29,983 nt of DNA from a virus, in IMG/VR virus record IMGVR_UViG_3300037161_000097, positions 1 through 29,983 of that record. One strand, written 5' to 3'. Under the pieces are notes generated by a model. The model saw only the letters and a list, made by a program, of their open reading frames with translations. It ran no database searches and was not told the origin of the DNA. Each line of letters begins with the position of its first letter. Position 1 is the stretch's first letter. Of the stretch, positions 7,034 through 28,011 are shown piece after piece. Both the position numbers and the translations under genes were made by a program.

Positions 7034-7526
7034 GGCGCACCTTCACTTCCACCTTGGGCTCCTTCGGTACCACCTCGACCCCGGGCACCGGCTCTCCGCC
7101 GAGGGCTAGCTTGCGCACTTCGTCCCAGGCGACCTCTGGCGGGGGGGCCGGCTTGCGGCGGATCAGGGCGTGCTCGGCGGCCCACATCATCAGCGCCTCT
7201 TCGTCGACCCGCTTGACCTCGGGCACTTGGTCGCGCACCTCGATGTCACCGTCCGGCACGGAGACGCGCTTGTGCCCACCCATCGCCACCTGGCGCTCGG
7301 CCTCAGCGATCGCGTACGGACGGATGAGCGCCGTCAGGTTGGCGACGAGCTCCTTGTCGCCGGCCGTCTCGGCGTCCAACCAGCGGGCGATCTGCTCGAC
7401 CTTGGCGACGACCCGCTTGACCTCCGCATCGTGGGTGGCGACGTTCTCGGCGACCCGGCTCTGTGCGTCCTTGATGGCCCGGAGTGCTACCCCGAGGGAC
7501 GCTCGATCGACGACGGGCTGCTCCAT
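7023..7526 (-). CDS. Gam/Gp157-like recombination-associated protein
   Basis: 167 aa. The start is the ATG at 7526, which overlaps the stop of the upstream gene (ATGA); the frame is open further upstream, but that part lies antisense-like across the neighbouring gene. The N-terminal 60 residues are helical and coiled-coil-like (ALRAIKDAQSRVAENVATHD, EVKRVVAKVEQIARWLDAE). They are followed by a short beta region (KRVSVPDGDIEVRDQVPEV) and DEEALMMWAAEH. Helical coil plus a beta strand written around a polypeptide GxIxxR is the layout of Mu Gam-type nuclease inhibitors and of siphovirus Gp157. The operon also has recombination-type genes. The family assignment is tentative. Confidence 0.5.
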   Translation of the reverse strand: MEQPVVDRASLGVALRAIKDAQSRVAENVATHDAEVKRVVAKVEQIARWLDAETAGDKELVANLTALIRPYAIAEAERQVAMGGHKRVSVPDGDIEVRDQVPEVKRVDEEALMMWAAEHALIRRKPAPPPEVAWDEVRKLALGGEPVPGVEVVPKEPKVEVKVRRDS

Positions 7527-8524
7527 CAGACGCGAGCTCCGTCCGCGTCGACCTCGAACACCGGCGCGCAGACGCGCGGGGCCTTCACCTTGTCCGGGTA
7601 CTGCGCGCCCTGTCCCTTGGCCGATAGCTCGTCGACCTTCACCGGGCAGGCCAGGATGTGGGTGTAGCCGTCGCACCACTTCGACCCCTCCCAGGGGTGC
7701 GCGAAGAAGTGCAGGCCTCCCCCACACTCGGCCTTCCCTCCGTCCCAATCAGGAGCCGCAGGCGTCTCGCCGGGGCGGTACGTGACAGTGGTCTTCGTGG
7801 TCCCGCGCCAGTCGTCCCGGACGGCCTTGTAGAGCACGGCCACGCCATCCGTGACAGGCACGCCGTAGAACTCGCACCAGGCGGAGCCCGTCGTCGTGTC
7901 GGGGGGCGTGATCTGGACGCCACCGTCCACCTTGGCCTGAGCGCTCAGAATGGTCACCGCCACGAACGCGGAGGCGAGCACCTTCGCCAGCCCGCGCACG
8001 ATCACTTGGCAGGCGCCCCAGGCCCGCACGGTCGCGCTGTCCCAGGCCCGCACGGTCGCGCTGTCCCAGGCCTCCACGGTCGCGCTGCCCGAGGCCCGCA
8101 CGGTCGCGCTGTCCCAGGCCTCCACGGTCGCGCTGCCCGAGGCCTCCACGGTCGCGCTGCCCGAGGCCTCCACGGTCGCGCTGCCCCAGGCCCGCACGGT
8201 CGCGCTGCCCCAGGCCCGCACGGTCGCGCTGTCCCAGGCCTCCACGGTCGCGCTGCCCGAGGCCTCCACGGTCGCGCTGCCCGAGGCCTCCACGGTCGCG
8301 CTGCCCGAGGCCTCCACGGTCGCGCTGCCCGAGGCCCGCACGGTCGCGCTGTCCCAGGCCCGCACGGTCGCGCTGTCCCAGGCCCGCACGGTCGCGCTGC
8401 CCGAGGCCCGCACGGTCGCGCTGCCCGCTACGGTGAAGCTCCCCTTTCCGACGAGGTGGGGGTGGTGTCCCGCGGCGAGCGCGGCGTCAAGCTCCTGTTG
8501 GGTTCGAACGTCAGTGCAAGCCAC
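7526..8524 (-). CDS. Octapeptide-repeat solenoid protein with DUF7666-like C-terminal domain
   Basis: 332 aa from a GTG at 8524 with GGAGG about 8 nt upstream. Residues 1-34 are a short N-terminal cap. Residues 35-170 are 17 octapeptides of the form S-A-T-V-(R/E)-A-(S/W)-(G/D). The beta pattern continues degenerately to about residue 200, giving a likely beta-solenoid. The C-terminal part has GVAVLYKAVRDDW, TYRPGE, ECGGGLHFFAHP and the paired cysteines of SAWCEFYG and ACPVKV. I recall the LYKAV...Y.PG...C..GLHF pattern as the domain called DUF7666 in phages; function unknown. Downstream of a recombination-type gene in a coupled operon. Variable R/E and SG/WD/WG positions are discussed under findings. 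Confidence 0.65.
   Translation of the reverse strand: MACTDVRTQQELDAALAAGHHPHLVGKGSFTVAGSATVRASGSATVRAWDSATVRAWDSATVRASGSATVEASGSATVEASGSATVEASGSATVEAWDSATVRAWGSATVRAWGSATVEASGSATVEASGSATVEAWDSATVRASGSATVEAWDSATVRAWDSATVRAWGACQVIVRGLAKVLASAFVAVTILSAQAKVDGGVQITPPDTTTGSAWCEFYGVPVTDGVAVLYKAVRDDWRGTTKTTVTYRPGETPAAPDWDGGKAECGGGLHFFAHPWEGSKWCDGYTHILACPVKVDELSAKGQGAQYPDKVKAPRVCAPVFEVDADGARV
8015..8422 (-). repeat. 24-bp tandem repeat, 17 copies
   Basis: Seventeen contiguous 24-bp units with the invariant core CACGGTCGCGCTG (plus-strand reading). Variation is limited to a few codons: CCCGCAC versus CCTCCAC (Arg/Glu) and two alternatives at the following junction (Ser-Gly, Trp-Asp, Trp-Gly). Units are all exactly 24 bp, so copy changes keep the frame. 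A degenerate 18th unit lies next to it at about 8423-8434. Confidence 0.95.
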
Positions 8525-13115: not shown

Positions 13116-13324
13116 GCCGCGCCCAGTTCGACGGGCCACGGACCGCGGCTCCGGACCAGGAGGCCGAGCGTTTCTGCGTCCTCCACCCTTCGGCGGGCTG
13201 TTCTCTCGCTGCAGTGCAAGATGGCGGCCAGCTGCAGATAGCTCGGCGGGAGACGGTGCAAGGCGACGAAGTCGCGGACCTGGTCAGCGGCGATGCGAGT
13301 GAGAGCCTGGCGCCGCCGGGTCAT
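13112..13324 (-). CDS. Small helix-turn-helix protein
   Basis: 70 aa from the ATG at 13324 (ATGA overlap with the HNH stop). LTRIAADQVRDFVALHRLPP then SYLQLAAILHCSERTARRRV form a helix-turn-helix of winged-helix type, followed by EDAETLGLLVRSRGPWPV. The pattern resembles small MarR/GntR-like DNA-binding domains. Together with the next HTH protein it suggests an origin- or promoter-binding pair. Confidence 0.65.
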   Translation of the reverse strand: MTRRRQALTRIAADQVRDFVALHRLPPSYLQLAAILHCSERTARRRVEDAETLGLLVRSRGPWPVELGAA

Positions 13325-13908
13325 TGCGTCGCCGCCGTGCGCTGCTGGCGTAGCCGCTGACGTAGCCGCTTTTCGTAGGTGCTCTGGGACTCACGGGCGC
13401 ACGTGCGACAGATGCGGGCGCCGTCAGGTCGGACGGTCGTGTTGCTGGTGTCGTAGGGGTGCCCGTGCGGGCAGTGGGTCTTGTTGGCGCTCGCGTTTGG
13501 GTTGCGGTGGTGGTTGACGTAGGGCGAGACGGGCTCGAGGTGGCTCGGCCGAACGCATAGCTGGACCCGGCAGAGGTGGTCTACCTCGAACTCATGCCCT
13601 GGCGGGAGGGGCCCGTGCCAGACCTGCCACATCCACCGGTGAGCGGTGGTGGCGGTCGCCTTGCCTGCGATGCGGCCCCAGACGAGCCCGTATCCACCCT
13701 GGGTTGCCTTACCCGTCCAGATCCAGCAAGGGGAGCCGTAGCCGCGGTCCTCGGTCTGCCACGCTGGCATCGGGATGGACCAGAAGACCGGCCCCGCTTG
13801 GTCCTGGAAGTGGCGGTTATCAGGAGGAACTTCTTCAGCTTCCACTCTAGCCTGAGACTCTACAGCCCCCCTCAGCCGCTTGTCAAGCCCCGGCCACGCC
13901 GAGGCCAT
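13321..13908 (-). CDS. HNH endonuclease
   Basis: 195-aa frame. Residues 60-124 hold the family pattern CWIWTGKATQGGYGLVWG, AHRWMW, EVDHLCRVQLCVRPSHLEPV: D110-H111 with C113, C118 and H123 form the beta-beta-alpha metal site. A second Cys/His pair set (THCPHGHPY, CRTC) adds another zinc finger. The ATG at 13908 has a good GGAGG 6 nt upstream and is 1 nt past the lipoprotein stop. A strong promoter at 13857-13886 lies inside the frame, and the GTG at 13845 is only about 5 nt from the predicted transcript start, so a shorter, near-leaderless form (174 aa) is a real alternative. First gene of the replication operon. Could be a homing or packaging-linked HNH nuclease. Confidence 0.7.
   Translation of the reverse strand: MASAWPGLDKRLRGAVESQARVEAEEVPPDNRHFQDQAGPVFWSIPMPAWQTEDRGYGSPCWIWTGKATQGGYGLVWGRIAGKATATTAHRWMWQVWHGPLPPGHEFEVDHLCRVQLCVRPSHLEPVSPYVNHHRNPNASANKTHCPHGHPYDTSNTTVRPDGARICRTCARESQSTYEKRLRQRLRQQRTAATQ
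13857..13886 (-). promoter_or_regulatory. Promoter of replication operon
   Basis: On the minus strand, TTGACA (13886-13881) is a perfect -35 box, with TAGAGT (13862-13857) as the -10 box after 18 nt. The predicted start near 13850 leaves about 5 nt before a GTG at 13845. Confidence 0.6.
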
Positions 13909-14334
13909 TCAGCCTCCGAGCATCAGGGAAACTTGCCAGCCGTCCCCCTGGAGTTGCGAGAACGAGTAATTCTGCACACCCCGGTGGCTGACAGAGACGC
14001 CGTAGAAGCTCTCTCGCGGCAGCCCCGAGGCGACGAAGGGGAAAGTGCAGGTGGTGCCGGCGCCTGAGACGGAGGCCGTGCCGAGCTGGCCGGTGCCGAC
14101 GATGGTGCCGGACTGGTCCGTGACGGTCACCTGGGTCCCAGGGCCGATGTCGCTGTAGCCGCCCTGACCGAAGCAGTTGGACTCGGCCGTGGCAAAGTCG
14201 ATGAGGGCGAGACTGCCCGTGATGCTGTAGCTCGACGTCGTCGCGCTCGTGACCACCTTGAGCGCCGGCGAGCCGCAGGCTGAGGCGCAGAGAGCCGCTG
14301 CGATCGCCCCGATGAGGACCGAACGGCCGTTCAT
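13909..14334 (-). CDS. Secreted lipoprotein
   Basis: 141 aa. The N-terminus MNGRSVLIGAIAAALCASAC is a lipoprotein signal peptide: positive n-region, hydrophobic h-region, and a lipobox ending ASA-Cys20. The mature part is rich in Ser, Thr, Gly and beta-strand patterns (SYSITGSLALIDFATAESNC, TQVTVTDQSGTIVGTG) with two further cysteines (Cys54, Cys95), which may form a disulfide. No family is recognised. It has a promoter of its own (14342-14347) separate from the replication operon, next to the divergent late promoter. Phage-encoded lipoproteins are often involved in superinfection exclusion or surface change; that is inference. Confidence 0.6.
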   Translation of the reverse strand: MNGRSVLIGAIAAALCASACGSPALKVVTSATTSSYSITGSLALIDFATAESNCFGQGGYSDIGPGTQVTVTDQSGTIVGTGQLGTASVSGAGTTCTFPFVASGLPRESFYGVSVSHRGVQNYSFSQLQGDGWQVSLMLGG

Positions 14335-14347
14335 GCCGGGGACTGTA
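14335..14347 (-). promoter_or_regulatory. Leaderless promoter of the lipoprotein gene
   Basis: TACAGT (minus strand 14347-14342) is followed by 7 nt and the ATG at 14334, so the transcript would start at or just before the start codon. No strong -35 box is seen. Confidence 0.45.
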
Positions 14348-14380
14348 GCACGCCCCGGGTGGGTGGGGAAACCCCTCCGC

Positions 14381-14412
14381 TTGCGGGTCGGCAGGCCACG
14401 AACGAATATTCG
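14381..14412 (+). promoter_or_regulatory. Candidate promoter of the late/packaging operon with palindromic operator
   Basis: TTGCGG (14381-14386), 17-nt spacer, GAATAT (14404-14409), with the ATG at 14418 eight nt after. The -10 box is inside the perfect palindrome CGAATATTCG (14403-14412), which may be an operator. A short GGGG-AAA-CCCC inverted repeat lies at 14365-14375. Confidence 0.4.
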
Positions 14413-14417
14413 CTTCG

Positions 14418-14627
14418 ATGGTAGTCGCCGCCCGAGGCAAGCCGCAGGTCTCCCGGATGGGGGTGCTGTGGGAGGCCCTCTTCGGCCGGCCGCCTACCAA
14501 GGCGGAGACGAAAGCCTGGGAGAACGCCATCGCCGCCAGCGACGAGTACTTCGACAAGGTGGGGTCAGACGCGCCCTGCCCCAGCTGCATGGTCCGAATC
14601 GAGCACCGCCTGATGCCAATCGCGTGA
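14418..14627 (+). CDS. Small hypothetical protein
   Basis: 69 aa from the ATG at 14418, first gene of the plus-strand packaging/structural operon. Lys- and Trp-containing helices (GVLWEALFGRPPTKAETKAW, ENAIAASDEYFDKV) are followed by APCPSCMVRIEHRLMP with a CPSC pair. No family recognised. The short distance to the predicted promoter suggests a leaderless or nearly leaderless mRNA. Confidence 0.55.
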   Translation: MVVAARGKPQVSRMGVLWEALFGRPPTKAETKAWENAIAASDEYFDKVGSDAPCPSCMVRIEHRLMPIA

Positions 14628-14631
14628 GGGA

Positions 14632-15402
14632 ATGATGCGCACCGATCCCGCCTTCCAGTATCTGCCCCCGATGGCCGAGGGCGACTACCAGCGGCTCAAG
14701 GAGTCGATCGCCCGGCATGGGTTCCTGGCCGGTAACGAGGTTCTGCTCCTCGAGGACGGCCGCATCCTCGACGGCCACCATCGGGCGAAGGCCTGCGCCG
14801 AGCTGGGGATCCAGTGTCCGACCCGGGTGGTCGAGGTCCCCGAGGAGGCCCGCTGGGACTTCGTCTACCTGATGAACGTCCCCCGCCGGCATCTGCTCGT
14901 CGAGGATCGGACGCGCCTGGTCCGCGAGTACCTCCACCGCCATCCCGCCGAGTCGGACCGGTCCATCGCTCGGGCGTCCAGTGTCTCCCCCACCACGGTG
15001 GGGAAGCTCCGCGGCGAGGAGCATGTCGGGCCGAGCCCCCAGGCTGCCACCCGCCGGGATCATGGCGCCGAACTGTCCAGCGTGGACAGTTCCGAGGACG
15101 AAGAGGGCGGCGAGGACACGGCCGCCGAGAACTACGCCGACCACCGCAACCAGCTCTGGGTCGACGTGGTGATCGGCTACCCGGCGCCCTCCGAAGGGGA
15201 GCGCAAGCGCCAGGGGACGGTGCCCTACCCGCAGGCCTCGATGCGTCTGGAGTGGAGGTCGGGGCGGATGTACGTCACCACCCCGGTGCCGGACAGCTTG
15301 ATCGCCCAGGGGCCGCTGGCGAATGACATCGCCTTCCGGCTGAAGAACGAGTTGATGCACCGGCCTCTGGAGACGGTGCGTCGCAAGGAGGCCATGGCGT
15401 GA
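14632..15402 (+). CDS. ParB-like N-terminal domain protein
   Basis: 256 aa, starting at one of two adjacent ATGs after GAGGGA. Residues 16-70 are a ParB/sulfiredoxin-type nuclease domain: YQRLKESIARHGFLAG, EVLLLEDGRILDGHHRAKAC with the DGHHR motif. Residues about 80-125 are helical and include a helix-turn-helix (DRSIARASSVSPTTVGKLRG). The C-terminal part (about 140-256) is acidic then beta-rich (VDVVIGYPAP, RMYVTTPVPD) and not recognised. Phage ParB-like proteins act as DNA-binding or DNase factors in regulation, host takeover or packaging. Sits at the start of the packaging operon. Confidence 0.7.
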   Translation: MMRTDPAFQYLPPMAEGDYQRLKESIARHGFLAGNEVLLLEDGRILDGHHRAKACAELGIQCPTRVVEVPEEARWDFVYLMNVPRRHLLVEDRTRLVREYLHRHPAESDRSIARASSVSPTTVGKLRGEEHVGPSPQAATRRDHGAELSSVDSSEDEEGGEDTAAENYADHRNQLWVDVVIGYPAPSEGERKRQGTVPYPQASMRLEWRSGRMYVTTPVPDSLIAQGPLANDIAFRLKNELMHRPLETVRRKEAMA

Positions 15403-15728
15403 GCGAGCGAGTGACCGTGATCGGGATCTGCAAGCCCAACTGCGCGCCCATCCAGGTGCTGACCAAGCAGCGGGCCCGGGACGTCCTGGGCAAGATCGAG
15501 GCGGCCGTGGAGCTCGAGCGCGGCCTCTGGCTGACGAACGCCTCCGGCCACGAGACGCACCTCCCGCTGGAGAGCTTGCAGAACGTGGTCGAGGTCTCCG
15601 AGCAGGAGATGACCAGCCAGGCTGAGCAGCAGGAGGCGATCGGCCGCCAGGTGCTCGAGCAGGCACAGCGTCAGGCGCTGGCGGGCGGAGGCCCAGGGAT
15701 GCCGATCCCGCTGCTACGCCGTGGCTGA
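15399..15728 (+). CDS. Hypothetical protein
   Basis: 109 aa from a GTG that overlaps the previous stop (GTGA). RVTVIGICKPNCAPIQVL then TKQRARDVLGKIEAAVELE and an acidic Gln/Glu-rich helical tail (EVSEQEMTSQAEQQEAIGRQ). Not recognised. The coupled position points to a packaging-operon accessory. Confidence 0.55.
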   Translation: MSERVTVIGICKPNCAPIQVLTKQRARDVLGKIEAAVELERGLWLTNASGHETHLPLESLQNVVEVSEQEMTSQAEQQEAIGRQVLEQAQRQALAGGGPGMPIPLLRRG

Positions 15729-15954
15729 TGGCACTAGCGTCCCCGATCCGCCGTTGCCTCCCCCACCGGAACTCCCGCCCTCGGTGGTCGCCAAGGCGGA
15801 CCAGGGAGAGGCGCTGATCCGGGACACCGGGGTCCGGGTCGCCCAGCTCTCGGCCGCGTTCCTGAAGGAGCTGATAAAGGCCGGCGTCCCCCCGCCGTTC
15901 CTGGTCCCGCTCTGCCAGCAGTACCTCGCCCACCTCTGCCAGCGGTTCATGTGA
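15721..15954 (+). CDS. Hypothetical protein
   Basis: 77 aa from a GTG, overlapping the previous gene by 8 nt. A proline-rich start (VPDPPLPPPPELPPSVV) leads into a helical region (DTGVRVAQLSAAFLKELIKA) and LVPLCQQYLAHLCQRF. No family known. Confidence 0.5.
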   Translation: MADGTSVPDPPLPPPPELPPSVVAKADQGEALIRDTGVRVAQLSAAFLKELIKAGVPPPFLVPLCQQYLAHLCQRFM

Positions 15955-16184
15955 TGCTTGCCGTCAGCGTCGCCGTCAGCGTCCGCCCGGCCCTCTCGGT
16001 GGTCCTCTGCCCGTCCGGCAAGATCCCCTACGCCACCCACGACGAGGCAAGACGTGCTGTCAAGGGCCAGGGCACGCATCACGGCAGTGGGTTGGCGCCG
16101 TACGCCTGTCGGAGGTGTGGGGCTGTCCACCTGACCTCCAAGAGCCGGGGAGCGCTCAGGGAGGCGCAGAGACACCATGCCTGA
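15954..16184 (+). CDS. Small protein with CxxC pair
   Basis: 76 aa from the ATG at 15954 (TGATG overlap); a GTG at 15951 is an alternative. The N-terminal stretch is VSVAVSVRPALSVVLCPSG, followed by IPYATHDEARRAVKGQG and a YACRRCGAVHLTS zinc-like pair. A short nucleic-acid- or protein-binding protein is likely. Family unknown. Confidence 0.5.
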   Translation: MLAVSVAVSVRPALSVVLCPSGKIPYATHDEARRAVKGQGTHHGSGLAPYACRRCGAVHLTSKSRGALREAQRHHA

Positions 16185-16320
16185 GCAGCTCGCCACCCAC
16201 GCCGACGGCTCGCTCCGCTACCGCGCCCAGCCCGGGGTTCTGAGCGGCGGCCTCTGCGTGCGCTGCCGCATCCGCGCCGGCCTACCGGTCCCGAGATTCG
16301 TGAGGCCGAGAGGTGCCTGA
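16177..16320 (+). CDS. 47-aa hypothetical protein
   Basis: 47 aa from an ATG 8 nt inside the previous gene and ending 8 nt inside the next. MPEQLATHADGSLRYRAQPG, then LCVRCRIRAGLPVPRF with a CVRC pair. Overlap on both sides and the CxxC motif support a real small gene, but no homology can be tested. Confidence 0.4.
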   Translation: MPEQLATHADGSLRYRAQPGVLSGGLCVRCRIRAGLPVPRFVRPRGA

Positions 16321-16942
16321 CGCCTGCCGGAAGTGCGGCCTCCCCCACCCCGGATGCACCGGCCACCGCAGTCGCAGGGTTGACGGAAGGCTGCAGCCCT
16401 GCAAGCAGACCCGGGGCCTGGTGCCTGTCACAGAGGGGCAGGTCTGCTACGCCCATGGCGGAGCGACGCCAGCGATCCAGGTCGCCGCCGAGCGCAAGTC
16501 CAGACGCGAGGACGGCCAGCGGAAGGCCGCAGCCCTGGTCGAGGCCTACATCCAGGAGCACCCGAACGCCGACCCGATGCTGGAGCTGATCCGGATGGTG
16601 CTGCAGACGGCGGCCTGGGAACGGGCGCTGGCGATGCTGCTGTACCAGGAGGACGACGTCATCGAGAGCGTCGACTACGGGGTGGGCGGGTCGCGGCGGG
16701 AGGAGAACATCCGCTACCGCCAGTGGAAGGACGCGGCCGATCGGCTGGTGAAGTTCAGCAAGGTGGCCGTGGACGCTGGGGTGGAGACGAAGCAATTGGA
16801 GATGCTCAAGGAGTTCGCAGCGACCTTCGGGGGCATCCTGACGGCGGTCCTGGGTGATCTCGGGCTGCCTGCAGAGCAGCAACAGCGAGGCCGCGAGCTC
16901 TATGCGCGGCGTCTCCGGCTGGTCGCCGGCGGAGGGAGTTGA
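16313..16942 (+). CDS. Putative terminase small subunit
   Basis: 209 aa from a GTG at 16313. The start has CRKCGLPHPGC, then C, and VCYAHGGATPAI: zinc-type cysteines ahead of a YAHGG motif often seen in small proteins just before the large terminase gene. The middle and end are long helices (LELIRMVLQTAAWERALAML, DRLVKFSKVAVDAGVETKQL) and EMLKEFAATFGGILTAVLGD. Helical DNA-binding small subunits recognise the packaging site and regulate the large subunit. Position, about 650 nt before the large subunit and in the same operon, supports this. No clear HTH is visible, so the call is moderate. Confidence 0.6.
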   Translation: MPDACRKCGLPHPGCTGHRSRRVDGRLQPCKQTRGLVPVTEGQVCYAHGGATPAIQVAAERKSRREDGQRKAAALVEAYIQEHPNADPMLELIRMVLQTAAWERALAMLLYQEDDVIESVDYGVGGSRREENIRYRQWKDAADRLVKFSKVAVDAGVETKQLEMLKEFAATFGGILTAVLGDLGLPAEQQQRGRELYARRLRLVAGGGS

Positions 16943-16945
16943 CCC

Positions 16946-17326
16946 ATGGCCAGTGATATCGCAGTCAAGATCCGAGCGGTCGCCAAGGAACGCGAGCAGC
17001 TGCAGGCGGCCGTCGAGAAGGTCGGCGCCAAGGAGACCGCGCTCCGGCGGCAGATGACCACGCTCGACCGCGAGAAGGAGCGGATCGAGGGTCGCATCGC
17101 TGAGATCGACGCAGCGCTCCGCCCGCTGGAGTCGCTGCTCGGCGTCAACCCAGGCCCGTCAACCCAGGCCCGTCAACCCAGGCCCGTCAACCCAGGCCCG
17201 TGGTACGCCCGACGGAGGGCACTCAGCGCTCACGCATCCTCGCGGCGATCGGGCGGCGCGATCTCGACGAGTTCAGCGCCCAGAGCGTCGCGGACGAGAC
17301 GGGCGAGTTGTTCGCAAGCTGTGTAG
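16946..17326 (+). CDS. Coiled-coil protein, frame disrupted at 14-bp repeats
   Basis: 126-aa frame. Residues 1-66 form a coiled coil (SDIAVKIRAVAKEREQLQAA, ETALRRQMTTLDREKERIEG, RIAEIDAALRPLESLLG). The 14-bp repeat then encodes a Pro/Gly linker (NPGPSTQARQPRPVNPGP), and the remaining part reads the next gene out of frame as low-complexity Arg/Ser residues. Only the first 85 residues or so look natural. Losing one repeat unit would fuse it in frame with the winged-helix gene at 17200. It could act as a dimerisation module for that DNA-binding domain. Confidence 0.6.
   Translation: MASDIAVKIRAVAKEREQLQAAVEKVGAKETALRRQMTTLDREKERIEGRIAEIDAALRPLESLLGVNPGPSTQARQPRPVNPGPWYARRRALSAHASSRRSGGAISTSSAPRASRTRRASCSQAV
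17144..17199 (+). repeat. 14-bp tandem repeat, 4 copies
   Basis: Four perfect copies of GTCAACCCAGGCCC run from 17144 to 17199. The unit is not a multiple of three, so a copy-number change shifts the reading frame. A GTG follows directly at 17200. Confidence 0.95.
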
Positions 17327-17412
17327 CCTTCATGGACATTCTCGTCAAGAGCGGCCAACTTCACCGGGTGCGCCCGCGCGTCTACCGGATCGCCCGAGCA
17401 AGCGCCGCGTGA
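17200..17412 (+). CDS. Winged-helix DNA-binding domain protein
   Basis: 70 aa from the GTG at 17200, immediately after the 14-bp repeats. RSRILAAIGRRDLDEFSAQS then VADETGELFASCVAFMDILV, KSGQLHRVRPRVYRIA is a winged helix with a closing wing (VRPRVYRIA). The natural N-terminal partner is probably the coiled coil at 16946, out of frame in this copy. The stop overlaps the next start. Translation of this piece alone needs the GTG, and no ribosome site separate from the repeat is visible. Confidence 0.6.
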   Translation: MVRPTEGTQRSRILAAIGRRDLDEFSAQSVADETGELFASCVAFMDILVKSGQLHRVRPRVYRIARASAA

Positions 17413-17606
17413 AGAACGTCGTCGACGCGCTGATCGTCCTCGCGGTCGTCCTGCTGTACGTCGCGCTGGGGGTGGCTGGAGCGTGGCTGGTGTGGCACTG
17501 GACGTCGCTGCTGGCCTGCCTGCTCGTCTGGGTCGGCGGCTGGGCGGTCGCCGGGCTGGCGTCCTGGTGGGCGCTGATCCAAGAGCCGCCGGTTGGCACA
17601 CCCTGA
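17409..17606 (+). CDS. Two-TM small membrane protein
   Basis: 65 aa from the GTG at 17409 (GTGA overlap). VDALIVLAVVLLYVALGVAG, then LVWHWTSLLACLLVWVGGWA and VAGLASWWAL show two or three hydrophobic helices and few charged residues. It overlaps the terminase gene's start by 14 nt. Its function is unknown; a holin-type or membrane accessory is possible, but position argues for an early-late accessory. Confidence 0.55.
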   Translation: MKNVVDALIVLAVVLLYVALGVAGAWLVWHWTSLLACLLVWVGGWAVAGLASWWALIQEPPVGTP

Positions 17607-19218
17607 CGTCTACTCGCTGGCCGCCGACGTCCTCGACCCGCCCAAGCGGGACACCTGGGGGCTGATCGGCTACGAGCCGGCCTGCGTCCCTCGGATCGAG
17701 GCCCGACGGCGCGGCGAAGAGATCCCGGCCTGCGGGGAGTGCCCGCAGGAGCTGGCTGCGGTCGCCACCGAGGACGACATTCTCTACGGCGGGGCCGCTG
17801 GCGGCGGGAAGACGAAGTGGCTGGTGGCCCTGGGGCTGCGCGAGTGCGACCAGCACCCGCTACTCCGCGCTGGCCTCTTCCGCAGGACGTACGACGAGCT
17901 CGAGGAGGGCCCGCTGGCTGAGCTGGCCAAGTTCGGCTACGGCGAGGCCCTCGGCTGCCGCTGGGACAAGACGCTCCACGAGCTCTGGTTCCCCAACCGG
18001 GCGGTCATCCGCTTCCGCTACCTGGAGAACCTCCTGGACGCCACCCGACGTCAGGGCGGCGAGTACCAGCTCCTGCTCCTCGACGAGGTAACGCTCTTCG
18101 CCCCCGGCATCGTCGACGTCGTCCGGGAGCGGGTGAGGACGTGGGCGGGCGGGCCGCCGGTGATCGGCACCCGTAGCACGTCGAACCCGGGCGGTGCGTC
18201 CCACGGGGCGGTCAGGGAGCGCTACATCACCCCGACTGCGCACGGCGACCATGTCCACACCGACGAGCAGGGCCACACCGTGCGCTTCATCGGCGCCAAG
18301 GTCGGCGACAACCCCTTCGTGGACGAGGGGTACAAGGCCCGGCTGATGGCCATCCCCGACCCCCAGCGGCGGGCGGCGATGCTGGACGGCTCCTGGGACA
18401 TCTTCGCCGGCCAGGTCTTCTCCCAGTGGCGGCATGACCGGGACGTCGTGGACCCCTTCCTGCTGCCGGAGAGCTGGACAAGGTACGCCGGCATCGACTA
18501 CGGCCGCGCGGCGCCGTGGTGCGTCCTGTGGGCGGCCGTCGACGAGGACCGCCGCGTCTGGGTATACCGCGAGCTCTACGAGATCGGCGTCGACGAGAGC
18601 GACCAGGCCCGCCGGATCCTCGCGGCAGAGGCGGATGGGCAATCGCAGGCGGTCGGTGACGATGGCGTCCGCCGCCAGGTGCCGGAGCCGTTCCCGTACC
18701 GCGTCTGCGACCCGGCGATGGCGGCGCGCGCGTCCGAAGCTCCCTCGATCATGCAGCGCTACGCGGAGGTCGGCTGTGCAGTTCACGCGGCGGTCAACGA
18801 CCGTCTGGCTGGCTGGGCGCGGATCCACAGCTACCTCGCCGATGGCCCGGCCTGCGCCATGCACCGCGCGCTGGGCTGGGATCGCTGCCCGCTGTTGCAC
18901 GTCTTCGCTGGCTGCGAGAACCTCATCCGGACGCTCCCGGCGCTCCCCTACGACGCCCACAGGACCGAGGACGCCGACACCCACGCCGAAGACCACGCTC
19001 CCGATGCGCTGCGGTACCTGCTGATGGCGCTCGGTGGAGAGCCTCAGTACGACGTGATCTCGGATGAGACCTACGCCGCCGCTCAGCAGAGCGAGCTGGC
19101 GGCGACGGTGGGGCCGTTCGCGGTGCCGGCAGGCCAGAGGCTACACGACCTCGGTGACAGTATCGACGACGATGGCTGGGGCATCCCTTCGGCAGTCGAC
19201 CAGGAGCGTCCATGGTGA
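17593..19218 (+). CDS. Terminase large subunit
   Basis: 541 aa from a TTG start at 17593, overlapping the previous gene. Residues 66-74 are the Walker A (YGGAAGGGKTKWL), 160-165 the Walker B (LLLLDEVTLF), and 190-205 the coupling region (GTRSTSNPGG). From 299 comes the RNase H-like nuclease domain: AGIDYGRAAPW (Asp302), the VCDPAM (Asp373) segment, and THAEDHAPDALRYLL (Asp467, Asp471). ATPase-driven DNA packaging through the portal and DNA cutting are the known roles. Length is ordinary for the family. Its downstream neighbours lead to the portal, with an extra cysteine-peptidase-like gene and a metallophosphoesterase between. Confidence 0.95.
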   Translation: MAHPDVYSLAADVLDPPKRDTWGLIGYEPACVPRIEARRRGEEIPACGECPQELAAVATEDDILYGGAAGGGKTKWLVALGLRECDQHPLLRAGLFRRTYDELEEGPLAELAKFGYGEALGCRWDKTLHELWFPNRAVIRFRYLENLLDATRRQGGEYQLLLLDEVTLFAPGIVDVVRERVRTWAGGPPVIGTRSTSNPGGASHGAVRERYITPTAHGDHVHTDEQGHTVRFIGAKVGDNPFVDEGYKARLMAIPDPQRRAAMLDGSWDIFAGQVFSQWRHDRDVVDPFLLPESWTRYAGIDYGRAAPWCVLWAAVDEDRRVWVYRELYEIGVDESDQARRILAAEADGQSQAVGDDGVRRQVPEPFPYRVCDPAMAARASEAPSIMQRYAEVGCAVHAAVNDRLAGWARIHSYLADGPACAMHRALGWDRCPLLHVFAGCENLIRTLPALPYDAHRTEDADTHAEDHAPDALRYLLMALGGEPQYDVISDETYAAAQQSELAATVGPFAVPAGQRLHDLGDSIDDDGWGIPSAVDQERPW

Positions 19219-19242
19219 TGCGTTGTCCGGGCGACGTCAGGG

Positions 19243-19518
19243 GTGACCCGGAGCCTGGACGGGTTGCCTCCCCGGGTTGCGATGCTCAGTGATCCCGACC
19301 GAGAGCGTGCGGCGTGGCTGGCGTGGTTCCGCGAGGCCGAGGTGGAACTGGGAACAGCGAGTGATCGCCTGATGGGGCTGTGGATCAGCGAGCACAAGCT
19401 CAGCGAGGCCTACCTCGAAGCCGTCGAAGCATTCAAGCGAGCGTGGTGGCGCTGGAGGACCCGGCTGACCGCGCTCAACGCCTATATGGACCACCGCCAT
19501 CGGAGGGCACATCCGTGA
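19243..19518 (+). CDS. Hypothetical protein
   Basis: 91 aa from the GTG at 19243; an ATG at 19282 (78 aa, MLSDPDRERAAWLAWFREAE) is an alternative and better begins the natural-looking helices. Charged helices follow (EVELGTASDRLMGLWISEH, LEAVEAFKRAWWRWRTRLT). Not recognised. The stop overlaps the next GTG (GTGA). Confidence 0.5.
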   Translation: MTRSLDGLPPRVAMLSDPDRERAAWLAWFREAEVELGTASDRLMGLWISEHKLSEAYLEAVEAFKRAWWRWRTRLTALNAYMDHRHRRAHP

Positions 19519-20402
19519 CCACAGGACTGCGCCGCGGCCTGCTGCCGCTCGACCCCGCCAAGCACGCTCGGTTCAAGAGCCTCGCCGAGTACGGCTACAC
19601 GCTGCCGATGCCGGCGTACCCGATCGACCGCACCGAGAGCGCGGCCATCCCGGCGAACGGCTGGGGCATGGGCGGCAACGGGCCCGACCCGACCCTCACC
19701 GTCAACGACCGCCAGCCGGTCGGCGACTGCGGGCCATGTGCGGTCCCGCTGCACGCTGACATGCTCGCTGCCGCGCTCTGTGGCCTCCCGCTGGGCCACA
19801 ACACCATGACCAGCGACGAGATCGTGGACCTCTATCTTGAGTACACCGGGGGCCAGGACACCGGCGTGGACCTTGGCGACTGGCTGCTCTGGCTCTTCCA
19901 GAAGGGGTACATCGAGGGCTTCGTCAAGCTCTCGCTCGCCGAGATGGACGCCGCTCTGGCGCACTTCAACGTCGTGGTCGTGGGCGTCAACCTCAACCCG
20001 CAGGCGGACCAGCAGTTCGCCACCGGCTTCCCCTGGAACGTCGGCCCCGGCGACGAGCCGGACCCGAGCGAGGGCCACGCCGTTCTGTTCGTCTACCGCG
20101 GAAGCCCGACCGGCACCGCCGGGTACATCAGTTGGGGCCAGCAGGTGATCGCCACTGGCGCGTGGCAGGCAGCCTGCCCGCAGCAGGCCTTCGCGGTCAT
20201 CACCGAGCAGGAGGCCGAGGCTAGGGGCTTCCCGTTCGGTCAGATCATCGCCGATCTCAAGGCGTTGGGTGGGACCGCCGTGAATCCCGCCCAGCCTCCC
20301 ACACCGGTCCCGGTGACGCCGCCCGCGGCCGTCACGCCGAGCTGGCTGGGCTGTACGGGGGCACTCGCCCTGGCGGCCTCGCTGTTGCTGCTGCTCCGGT
20401 GA
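19515..20402 (+). CDS. Papain-like cysteine peptidase-fold protein with C-terminal membrane anchor
   Basis: 295 aa from the GTG at 19515 (GTGA overlap). Residues 64-80: NDRQPVGDCGPCAVPLHADM, with Gln67, Cys72 and Cys75 arranged like the Q...C-G-x-C of papain-fold enzymes. His188 is in SEGHAVLFVYRG, and GYISWGQQV follows at 203-211. Residues about 270-285 are a Pro-rich linker, and the end (WLGCTGALALAASLLLLLR) is a hydrophobic anchor. Known phage proteins with a DCxCA motif near the packaging genes are of unclear role. An enzyme attached to the membrane by its tail is inferred from this layout; activity needs the Cys-His pair. Confidence 0.55.
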   Translation: MTTGLRRGLLPLDPAKHARFKSLAEYGYTLPMPAYPIDRTESAAIPANGWGMGGNGPDPTLTVNDRQPVGDCGPCAVPLHADMLAAALCGLPLGHNTMTSDEIVDLYLEYTGGQDTGVDLGDWLLWLFQKGYIEGFVKLSLAEMDAALAHFNVVVVGVNLNPQADQQFATGFPWNVGPGDEPDPSEGHAVLFVYRGSPTGTAGYISWGQQVIATGAWQAACPQQAFAVITEQEAEARGFPFGQIIADLKALGGTAVNPAQPPTPVPVTPPAAVTPSWLGCTGALALAASLLLLLR

Positions 20403-20614
20403 CTGCGCGCGTCAGCCCGGAGGAATGGCTGGCGCACCAGGCGAAGACGGTCAAGTGCTCGACCTGTAAGCACCCCGCACTCGCTGAGATCGAGAAGCTC
20501 CACGCCTCCGGCTGGCCATCAGCACAGATCGCACGCTGGCTGAAAGAGGCGTACCCGGAAGCGCCGACGGCCGCCCACACCCTCCGTGAGCACTTCCGGG
20601 AGCACCCCGCATGA
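20399..20614 (+). CDS. Small Cys/His protein with HTH-like segment
   Basis: 71 aa from a GTG overlapping the previous stop. CSTCKHPALAEIEKLHASGW, then PSAQIARWLKEAYPEAPTA and TLREHFREH form a helix-turn-helix-like unit after a CxxC pair. Probably DNA-binding. No family named. The stop overlaps the next ATG (ATGA). Confidence 0.55.
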   Translation: MTARVSPEEWLAHQAKTVKCSTCKHPALAEIEKLHASGWPSAQIARWLKEAYPEAPTAAHTLREHFREHPA

Positions 20615-25121: not shown

Positions 25122-26552
25122 GTGGGAACCCTCGCGACCATCTCGGGCGTCGCCATCGAGCCGTGTGTCAGCTCGAACAACCGCCTGTACACGGCGGACA
25201 TGATCCGGGGCGCCTATGAGCGGCTCTCACAGCGCCTCAAGGCCGGCCCCGACATTCCCGTGAGCTTCACCAGCCACCAGGACCGGCAGCACGGCAACGT
25301 CCGCCAGATCGCCGCGGTCCTCCGTGAGGTGTCGCTGACGCCCGCCACCCAGATCCGCTACCGGATGGACACCCTGGACACCGAGGCCGGGCAGGACGTG
25401 ACCAAGCTCGTCAGCGGCGACCACCCGGCGGTCAACGCCGTGTCCATCGTCGGCGAGTTCCTGGGGCGGGTGCGCCAGGTCGAGGTGGACGGCCAGCAGG
25501 CCGAGACCGCCGACGGCCTCGACATCCTCGGCTTCGACATCGTGGACATGCCCGGAGTGGGCGGCGCCCGGATGGACGACGTCCAGATCCACGGGCTCTC
25601 AGGCGAGCGCCATGCAGAGCGCCGCCTCATCTTCGAGTCAGCGGGAGAGACGGCTGTGACCCAAGTGACCGAGGCTCCGACCACCCAGCCCTACGGCGCC
25701 GTCACCTATGCGGACCCGGGCTACCAGCAGGACAAGGTCAAGCGGTACCCGCTGGACAGCAAGGCCCACGTGAAGGCCGCCTGGTCCTACATCAACATGC
25801 CGAAGAACGCGGCGAAGTACTCGGACGAGCAGGTCGGCCGAATCAAGGCGAAGATCAAGAGCGCGGCGAAGAAGCTGGGCGTGCAGATCGCCAGCGAGAG
25901 CGCGCCGACCGCGTCCCTGTTCGAGGGCGACGCCTTCGCCAGTTACGGCGACGCCAACTCGTACAGCTCGCTGATTCCGATCGACCCCGACCAGGACGGC
26001 GACACCGACTTCCTGGCCTGCCCGACCTGCGGAACGATCCGCCCCGTCACTGACCCGGACCTCAACCCGGACATCGACGACGACAACGACATGCAGGCGG
26101 GCATGGAATCCGCCCCAACCCCACCGAAGGAGACCACCGTGACCGAAGCAGCCAACCCGACTGCGGTCGACGAGGATCAGCGGCTCGCTGCGGTCATCGT
26201 TGCCGCCCTCAAGCAGTCCAAGCAGACCACCGAGACCCCGGCCGTACCGGCAGCCCTCACCGAGTCCAGCGTCGCTGACCTCGTCACCAAGACGGTGGCC
26301 ACGGCGGTGGAGAGCATGAAGGGAGAGCTGATCGAAGCCATCAAGGGGAACGGTGGCGGACCTCAGCGCCAGGGCGTCGTGCCGGGCGCAGCGACCGAGC
26401 AGGCGTCGAAGACGCCGAAGACGCCCGAGGAGCGCGACGCCCGCCTTCTCGAGCTGGCAAAGATGCCGACAGAGCGCCTGCGCCGCGCCGGCGCCGACGT
26501 CATGGCGGCGCAGATCCCGACCCCGTCGAGGTGGACCGTCCTCCCCGGCTGA
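25122..26552 (+). CDS. Head maturation protease with DUF6582-like domain and scaffold-like C-terminal part
   Basis: 476 aa from a GTG. Residues 1-165 form a prohead-protease-type domain: PVSFTSHQDRQHGNV (His52), VNAVSIVGEF (Ser108), then GLDILGFDIVDMPGV, close to the His-Ser layout of T4 gp21-type and related phage proteases. Residues about 190-258 match a domain found behind such proteases (YADPGYQQDKVKRYPLD, AAWSYINMPKNAAKYS, KIKSAAKKLGV), which I recall as DUF6582. A short acidic part with CPTC follows. From 340 to the end is a helical, Ala/Lys/Glu-rich scaffold-like part (AVIVAALKQSKQTTE, ERDARLLELAKMPTERL). It cleaves capsid and scaffold during maturation. Confidence 0.75.
   Translation: MGTLATISGVAIEPCVSSNNRLYTADMIRGAYERLSQRLKAGPDIPVSFTSHQDRQHGNVRQIAAVLREVSLTPATQIRYRMDTLDTEAGQDVTKLVSGDHPAVNAVSIVGEFLGRVRQVEVDGQQAETADGLDILGFDIVDMPGVGGARMDDVQIHGLSGERHAERRLIFESAGETAVTQVTEAPTTQPYGAVTYADPGYQQDKVKRYPLDSKAHVKAAWSYINMPKNAAKYSDEQVGRIKAKIKSAAKKLGVQIASESAPTASLFEGDAFASYGDANSYSSLIPIDPDQDGDTDFLACPTCGTIRPVTDPDLNPDIDDDNDMQAGMESAPTPPKETTVTEAANPTAVDEDQRLAAVIVAALKQSKQTTETPAVPAALTESSVADLVTKTVATAVESMKGELIEAIKGNGGGPQRQGVVPGAATEQASKTPKTPEERDARLLELAKMPTERLRRAGADVMAAQIPTPSRWTVLPG
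26128..26141 (+). promoter_or_regulatory. Internal ribosome site and GTG, possible scaffold start
   Basis: AAGGAG (26128-26133) sits 5 nt before an in-frame GTG at 26139-26141 in the protease gene. Translation from here would give a 137-aa helical C-terminal product, as in phages where the scaffold is made from an internal start within the protease gene. Confidence 0.45.
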
Positions 26553-26611
26553 CGGTCGGCTGATCCCTCCCCTCTCTCCATCCACACCCCGCAAATCAGG
26601 AGCCCTATACC

Positions 26612-27994
26612 GTGAGCACAGAGCTCGAAGAGGCGCTTGCCGCCTCCCAAGTCGGCGCCCTTATCCCGAAGGCGATCGACCCTGTCATCCTGGAGTACGT
26701 CCGTCGGTACGCGCCGATGGCCCGCGCGCTCCCGACCGTCCCCTGGCACACCAACACGTACTACTTCAACCAGCGGACGGTGCTCCCGCCCGGAGGCTTC
26801 GTCACTGACGGTGGCGCGCGTCCGGTCGGCAACAGCACCTACGTCCAGTCGAGCTTCAACATCAAGCTCCTCCAGGCGATCGGCTCGGTCACCGGGTTCG
26901 CCCAGGTGGTCACCGCCGACCTGGTTGGCTCGTTGAAGCAGCGGGAAGTCGAAGGCACCCTGATGGGTCTCGCCTTCGACCTTGAGAACGCCCTGTGCTG
27001 GGGCAACAGCCTCGCCACCGTGGGCGGATGGTTCCCCCAGTTCGACGGCTTCGACGTCCAGATCAGCTCCTTCTCGGGCGCGACCCAGAACGCCGTCGAC
27101 CGGGCCAACGCGACCTTCGCGTTGACCGACATGGACACCCTGATCGACGTCGTCGAATCGAACGCGGCCATGGCCATCGGCGGCAGCCCGTACGCGTTCA
27201 TCTGCTCGCCAGCGGTGAACAGCAAGATCGCCCAGCTGCTCACCAACCAGCAGCGCTACAACACGGTGGACGTGGCGGTCGGCCTGAACGTGCCCAGCTA
27301 CCGTGACATCCCCATCCTCAAGACCTCGTTCCTGGCCTCTCGCCAGCAGGCGATGGGGACCGTGACCCCCTCGACGGGGACCACCGGCGGGACGCTGCCG
27401 GACTCGACCACCTACAAGTACCAGATCGCGCCGGTCATCGGCCGCTATGGAGAGATCGCGGCCTGCGCCGAGGTCTCCCAGGCCACCAGTGGTGTCGGCG
27501 GCGGGCTGCACACCATCAGCCTGGCGTTCAGCACTCCGACGGGTCCTGACGGCGCCGCGCCCATCGCATACAAGGTCTACCGGACCGCCGGGGGCGGCTC
27601 GACCGGGACCGAGACGCTGCTGGGCGTCGTGGACGCCTACGACAGCACCGGCAGCCAGCAGAGCCCTGTCGCGGTGACGACCATCATCGACACTGGCACG
27701 GCGCTGCTCACCAACACTCCGGGCGCCACCGTGGCCGCCCTCTCGGCCGCCTACGTCGGCGGGAACGCGGGCCAGCCACCGCTGGCGACGGGCCAGGAGA
27801 ACATCTACCTGGTGCCGCTCGACGACAACTTCATGGTGCGTCCCTTCACCCGGGACTTCGAGCTCATCAACCTGGCGCCGACCACCACGGCGCCTGACCA
27901 GCTGCCCTTCGCGGTGGTCTCGGACACCTGCCTGGCCATCCGTGCTCCCAAGTACGTGGCCCGGCTGATCCGCTCCGCCACCGGCATCCTCTAA
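26612..27994 (+). CDS. Major capsid protein (HK97 fold) with inserted beta domain
   Basis: 460 aa from a GTG with AGGAG upstream. The N-terminal part (ALIPKAIDPVILEYVRRYAP), YYFNQRTVLPPGGFVTDGGA, FNIKLLQAIGSVTGFAQVVT, and EGTLMGLAFDLENALCWGN resemble HK97-type coat proteins (E-loop, spine helix, P-domain). PYAFICSPAVNSKIAQLLTN is the A-domain. Residues about 250-373 are an inserted beta-rich region (TYKYQIAPVIGRYGEIAAC, HTISLAFSTP, AYKVYRTAGG). After it, the last strands (NIYLVPLDDNFMVRPFTRDF) finish the coat. Follows the protease/scaffold, as usual. The insertion may project from the capsid surface. Confidence 0.85.
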   Translation: MSTELEEALAASQVGALIPKAIDPVILEYVRRYAPMARALPTVPWHTNTYYFNQRTVLPPGGFVTDGGARPVGNSTYVQSSFNIKLLQAIGSVTGFAQVVTADLVGSLKQREVEGTLMGLAFDLENALCWGNSLATVGGWFPQFDGFDVQISSFSGATQNAVDRANATFALTDMDTLIDVVESNAAMAIGGSPYAFICSPAVNSKIAQLLTNQQRYNTVDVAVGLNVPSYRDIPILKTSFLASRQQAMGTVTPSTGTTGGTLPDSTTYKYQIAPVIGRYGEIAACAEVSQATSGVGGGLHTISLAFSTPTGPDGAAPIAYKVYRTAGGGSTGTETLLGVVDAYDSTGSQQSPVAVTTIIDTGTALLTNTPGATVAALSAAYVGGNAGQPPLATGQENIYLVPLDDNFMVRPFTRDFELINLAPTTTAPDQLPFAVVSDTCLAIRAPKYVARLIRSATGIL

Positions 27995-28011
27995 GGACCC
28001 CTCCCTGTGTC

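Follow-up and report, generated by a model that had tools for sequence, protein, structure and literature searches.

A 14-nt tandem array between two coding frames of a probable frame-split gene in an uncultured tailed phage

Repeat-controlled genes in phages and bacteria

The closest described system is neuO of Escherichia coli K1 prophage CUS-3, a phage-encoded O-acetyltransferase gene whose phase variation depends on a variable number of tandem repeats (PMC3046976). The neuO array consists of 7-nt units, and full-length protein is produced only when the copy number is a multiple of three, other numbers giving frame-shifted, truncated products; arrays of 2 to 93 copies occur in nature, and switching has been demonstrated (PMC3046976). 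The locus described here resembles neuO in that a phage gene contains an array with a unit length not divisible by three (7 nt in neuO and 14 nt here) and that copy numbers in multiples of three give the full-length product. On the other hand, the neuO array lies next to the start codon of a gene whose enzyme is known, whereas the present array would lie in a mid-gene linker, and only four copies were seen. In bacterial contingency loci, such as those of Haemophilus influenzae, copy number has been shown to vary, and the units are usually shorter and the tracts longer. The present locus is like them in having slippage-prone repeats in coding sequence, where copy number sets the frame.

In the literature searched, whose coverage was partial, no paper was found in which a phage gene for morphogenesis or regulation varies in phase through tandem repeats, and neuO was the sole phage precedent. 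If copy number changes among virions, the locus would be a slippage-controlled gene in a phage morphogenesis region, unlike neuO, which is a lysogenic-conversion gene, and phages would be using contingency loci for their own proteins. A caution is that an array with a frame-split gene may be the mere decay of a dispensable gene.

The array and the coding segments on its two sides

The window, by which we mean the whole stretch of DNA analysed (29,983 nt, GC 68.5%), is record IMGVR_UViG_3300037161_000097 of an uncultured phage, and contains genes typical of tailed phages, encoding the terminase large subunit (TerL) and portal, minor head, major head and head-tail adaptor proteins. The features of the locus are as follows.

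16313 to 16942, + strand: upstream gene, phrog_3678 (unknown function; E 4e-14), ending 3 nt 5' of the coil ATG
16946 to 17143, + strand: N-terminal half, coiled-coil-like, MASDIAVKIRAVAKEREQLQ...LESLLG, 66 aa, based on a strong Shine-Dalgarno sequence and codon usage
16946 to 17326, + strand: product readable from the four-copy allele, 126 aa, consisting of the coil, the linker and 42 out-of-frame residues, with TAG at 17324-17326
17144 to 17199, + strand: tandem array, four perfect copies of the 14-nt unit GTCAACCCAGGCCC, all three forward frames open
17200 to 17412, + strand: C-terminal half, 70 aa, possible helix-turn-helix or winged helix, based on codon usage, with TGA at 17410-17412
17409 to 17606, + strand: next gene, a 65-aa hydrophobic (membrane-protein-like) ORF whose GTG at 17409 overlaps the TGA of the C-terminal half
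17593 to 19218, + strand: TerL, phrog_979 (E 3e-28)

A preliminary description of this DNA placed the locus just before the large terminase gene; the 65-aa ORF, which had no family match in Pfam or PHROGs, in fact intervenes. TerL itself was 36-38% identical to its Arthrobacter phage counterpart.

Chance does not account for the array. The perfectly periodic tract spans 59 nt (17143-17201), with 45 matching positions in a run at period 14, whereas the maximum run in 100 dinucleotide shuffles of the window, examined at periods 7-40, was 14. Frame analysis confirmed that the four perfect copies stand between the coil frame (position 2 mod 3) and the downstream frame (1 mod 3), so that two coding segments are separated by a tandem repeat with a unit length not divisible by three. 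The codon-usage log-odds, trained on the window's other genes, were +37.5 bits for the coil segment read in the coil frame and about -60 in the other two, and +13.4 bits for the downstream half in its own frame as against -44 and -53 in the others, indicating that it is at the array that coding passes from one frame to the other, with real coding on both sides. The tail of the 126-aa product (17201-17323, scored in the coil frame) gave -28 bits. The coil start, ATG 16946, is preceded by the Shine-Dalgarno sequence GGAGGGAG with a duplex energy of -10.0 kcal/mol, and the sole GTG start of the downstream frame, at 17200, has a poor ribosome-binding site (-2.5 kcal/mol).

When the locus was rebuilt in silico with 0 to 7 copies, the two frames were joined into a single full-length ORF at 0, 3 and 6 copies (136, 150 and 164 aa, respectively), in agreement with the earlier calculation that losing one unit or gaining two joins the frames into a protein of about 150 residues. 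At 1, 4 and 7 copies the product was truncated (112, 126 and 140 aa), and at 2 and 5 copies the reading ran on into the frame of the gene that follows, that of the membrane protein (209 and 223 aa).

The identity of the product was examined for each half and for the joined protein. None of the three gave a match above the curated cut-off in Pfam or NCBIfam, and the PHROGs matches were weak; the sub-threshold Pfam and NCBIfam matches of the coil half were mostly to coiled-coil regions. By eye, the downstream half resembles a winged helix (SAQSVADETG...LVKSGQLHRVRPRVYRI), and the preliminary description called it a winged-helix domain. This assignment was not confirmed by Pfam, NCBIfam, PHROGs, or sequence and structure searches of the PDB: no helix-turn-helix or winged-helix profile matched above cut-off in Pfam, PHROGs or NCBIfam, the best being the phrog_2030 regulator at E 0.11. 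A single-sequence AlphaFold model of the C-terminal half alone was weak (mean pLDDT 69.6), with helices at residues 6-18, 22-31, 36-51 and 59-69, and Foldseek returned no match for it in the PDB or among viral structures. The predicted layout is helix-rich, a coil followed by a small helical domain that, by eye, may have a wing, as in DNA-binding proteins that combine a coiled coil with a helix-turn-helix, although unlike those the present protein has neither a match above curated cut-offs nor a structural match. That the product is a dimeric DNA-binding regulator is a guess from the by-eye reading.

Alleles in related phages and the readings of the locus

Relatives were sought with TerL and the phrog_3678 protein in 2.9 million viral contigs, and three close ones were found, namely G001 (IMGVR_UViG_3300037182_000044, 18.9 kb), G002 (3300048762_000153) and G003 (3300046673_000485). 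G001 was identical to the window across 16946-17412, the four copies included. Between 10.7 and 26 kb it differed from the window by one mismatch besides a 57-nt deletion, and between 26 and 28 kb by 10-15%; judged by this comparison, G001, which was separately assembled, is a distinct strain. G002 and G003 carry a deletion allele, defined by the following feature.

16984 to 17388, + strand: stretch absent from G002 and G003, 405 nt replaced by one A (net 404 nt)

The remnant in these two phages reads MASDIAVKIRAVAIARASAA*, with the original start and the original stop codon in one frame. Its flanks (16613-16983 and 17389-17999) showed 0 mismatches to the window, indicating that both alleles arose recently on one haplotype. 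Against the four-copy allele the net loss is 404 nt (2 mod 3), and against a three-copy allele it would be 390 nt (130 codons). The other net length differences of at least 9 nt between these genomes, counted outside the diverged stretch near 26.4-26.6 kb, were 57, 60, 63 (62+1), 12 and 9 (8+1) nt, each divisible by three. These values weakly suggest that the deletion arose in a parent whose two frames were joined, with 0, 3 or 6 copies; note that an in-frame remnant from one event has a prior probability of 1 in 3 of arising anyway.

No fused, three-copy or six-copy allele was found in the 2.9 million viral contigs, and exact DNA searches, one for the coil start and one for two tandem units, recovered G001 only. 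Likewise, when each half and the fused protein were used as queries against the viral contigs, this contig was the only homologue returned; phage genomes and bacterial genomes of GTDB gave no homologue, plasmids gave none that was convincing, and the architecture was not found in homologues outside the four genomes. More distant TerL relatives (42-55% identity) had neither half by tblastn and no C-terminal motif by pattern, and therefore offer no outgroup by which the deletion or the copy number could be polarised. The preliminary description had proposed a comparison of related phages for three-copy, in-frame versions; the relatives consist instead of one four-copy allele and two deletion alleles. 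In this small sample, copy number did not vary, being four in both array-bearing genomes, with the region absent from the two others.

We consider that the locus is a dispensable accessory gene that was recently frame-shifted and could be reverted by slippage, with a probability of roughly 0.6, and that switching is not favoured by the relatives. The gene would be a small one encoding an N-terminal coil, a proline-rich linker and a small C-terminal domain, located between the phrog_3678 gene and the membrane-protein gene, upstream of TerL. The linker would house the 14-nt array, four copies of which would throw the frame and give the 126-aa protein, a coil that lacks the C-terminal domain; slippage to three or six copies would then restore a protein of 150 or 164 aa, as in neuO. 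In a tightly packed operon, a stop codon that overlaps the next start codon usually marks where a gene ends. The presence of a strong start only at 16946, together with the overlap of TGA 17410-17412 and GTG 17409, points to one original gene, 16946-17412, which is probably now frame-split. The in-frame, start-to-stop remnant in two sister phages also argues for one gene, and the identical four-copy allele in a distinct strain is in keeping with this account of the locus; against one gene stand the lack of a fused allele in the data and the 1-in-3 chance noted above. The four-copy allele would be off or truncated and the gene dispensable, and if it is dispensable, an accessory gene that has shifted frame and is being lost accounts for everything. 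Decay is the default reading, given that the sister genomes are without the gene. Arrays usually grow from one resident copy of the unit. Since a single resident copy shares its phase with four copies, a fused ancestor would need either three copies or an inserted array (0 copies), insertion being the case in neuO. Of the earlier proposal, the frame-setting repeat in one split gene stands on frame arithmetic, codon usage, starts and the remnant, whereas the copy-number switching finds no three- or six-copy allele behind it.

True phase variation, in which the array is a contingency locus, slippage yields a mixture of virions with three, four and five copies, and on/off expression of the coil plus C-terminal protein is selected, is possible but seems unlikely to us. 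The array is perfect and unit-identical, its period is not a multiple of three, it lies in a linker between halves that still look coding, and one recent haplotype bears two different alleles; the logic, on at multiples of three, is also that of prophage-encoded neuO (PMC3046976). Selected phase variation, however, predicts copy-number variants, and none was seen in the few genomes at hand, both array-bearing genomes having four copies; moreover, four copies are short for a fast-switching tract, and in the two sister phages the gene is simply gone. A more elaborate version, which we regard as distinctly improbable, is a three-way slippage switch in the late/packaging region, in which 3n copies would give the coil with a putative DNA-binding C-terminal domain, 3n+1 a bare coil, and 3n+2 an in-frame fusion of 209 or 223 aa between the coil and the membrane protein encoded downstream, selection keeping the array in the population.

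About as doubtful as simple phase variation is the reading in which the four-copy state is normal and two separate genes are present, a 126-aa coil protein and a C-terminal protein whose translation starts at GTG 17200 or reinitiates at ATG 17332, just 3' of TAG 17324-17326. The frame is open from GTG 17200, the form is present in two genomes, and a one-copy ancestor would share the phase of four copies, but the ribosome-binding sites (-2.5 kcal/mol at 17200 and -0.6 at 17332) compare poorly with that at 16946 (-10.0), and the 126-aa product ends in 42 residues that lie in a strongly non-coding frame (-28 bits). An assembly error was raised in the preliminary description; the array would then have been miscounted, with a true copy number of three and an intact gene, and short repeats can be miscounted in metagenomic contigs. 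The 56-nt array nevertheless fits within one short read, and the same four copies occur in a second contig, that of G001, which is identical across the locus and about 10-15% different at 26-28 kb; an assembly or sequencing slip is therefore very improbable. We give the least credence to ribosomal -1 frameshifting within the array as a source of fused protein from the four-copy allele. The shift needed is indeed -1, and the coil frame has CCA or CCG codons after C, but it contains no canonical X XXY YYZ heptamer, and the downstream RNA structure is ordinary (z -0.5 for 17200-17280 and -0.1 for 17140-17280).

Other repeats and length differences in these genomes

Several further differences were observed. 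The 57 nt missing from G001 (13496-13552) are lost in frame from a minus-strand HNH endonuclease gene (13321-13908), and the 10-15% divergence of G001 at 26400-28000 reads as a patch of recombination that covers the major head gene. A small ORF that begins at 16177 (16177-16320, + strand) lacks 60 nt after 16222 in the window and G001, the loss being bounded by 13-bp direct repeats, GCGCCCAGCCCGG. G002 and G003 retain these 60 nt, which encode CPEC, one half of a zinc-ribbon-like pair CPEC...CVRC, so that this neighbouring gene shows the reverse loss pattern to the split gene. G003 (L104/L105) is circularly permuted relative to the window and, at reverse-complement coordinates 13794-20610, has ~6.8 kb absent from the window, which suggests a genome of ~37 kb, of which the window would be about four fifths.

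Repeats were also found elsewhere. The gene at the window start contains an imperfect 129-nt unit repeated 3.8 times (6-501), and G003 has a repeat array there too. A minus-strand, baseplate-like gene (7526-8524; phrog_15773) contains, at 8015-8426, a 24-nt unit that is repeated ~17 times and keeps the frame (8 aa per unit); the unit is unmatched in G002 and G003, whose corresponding stretch has another repeat array. The 10-mer CCCAGGCCCG is common to this 24-nt unit and the 14-nt unit at 17144-17199, and the 14-nt array may have been derived from the 24-nt one, although the shared CCCAGGCCCG could be due to chance.
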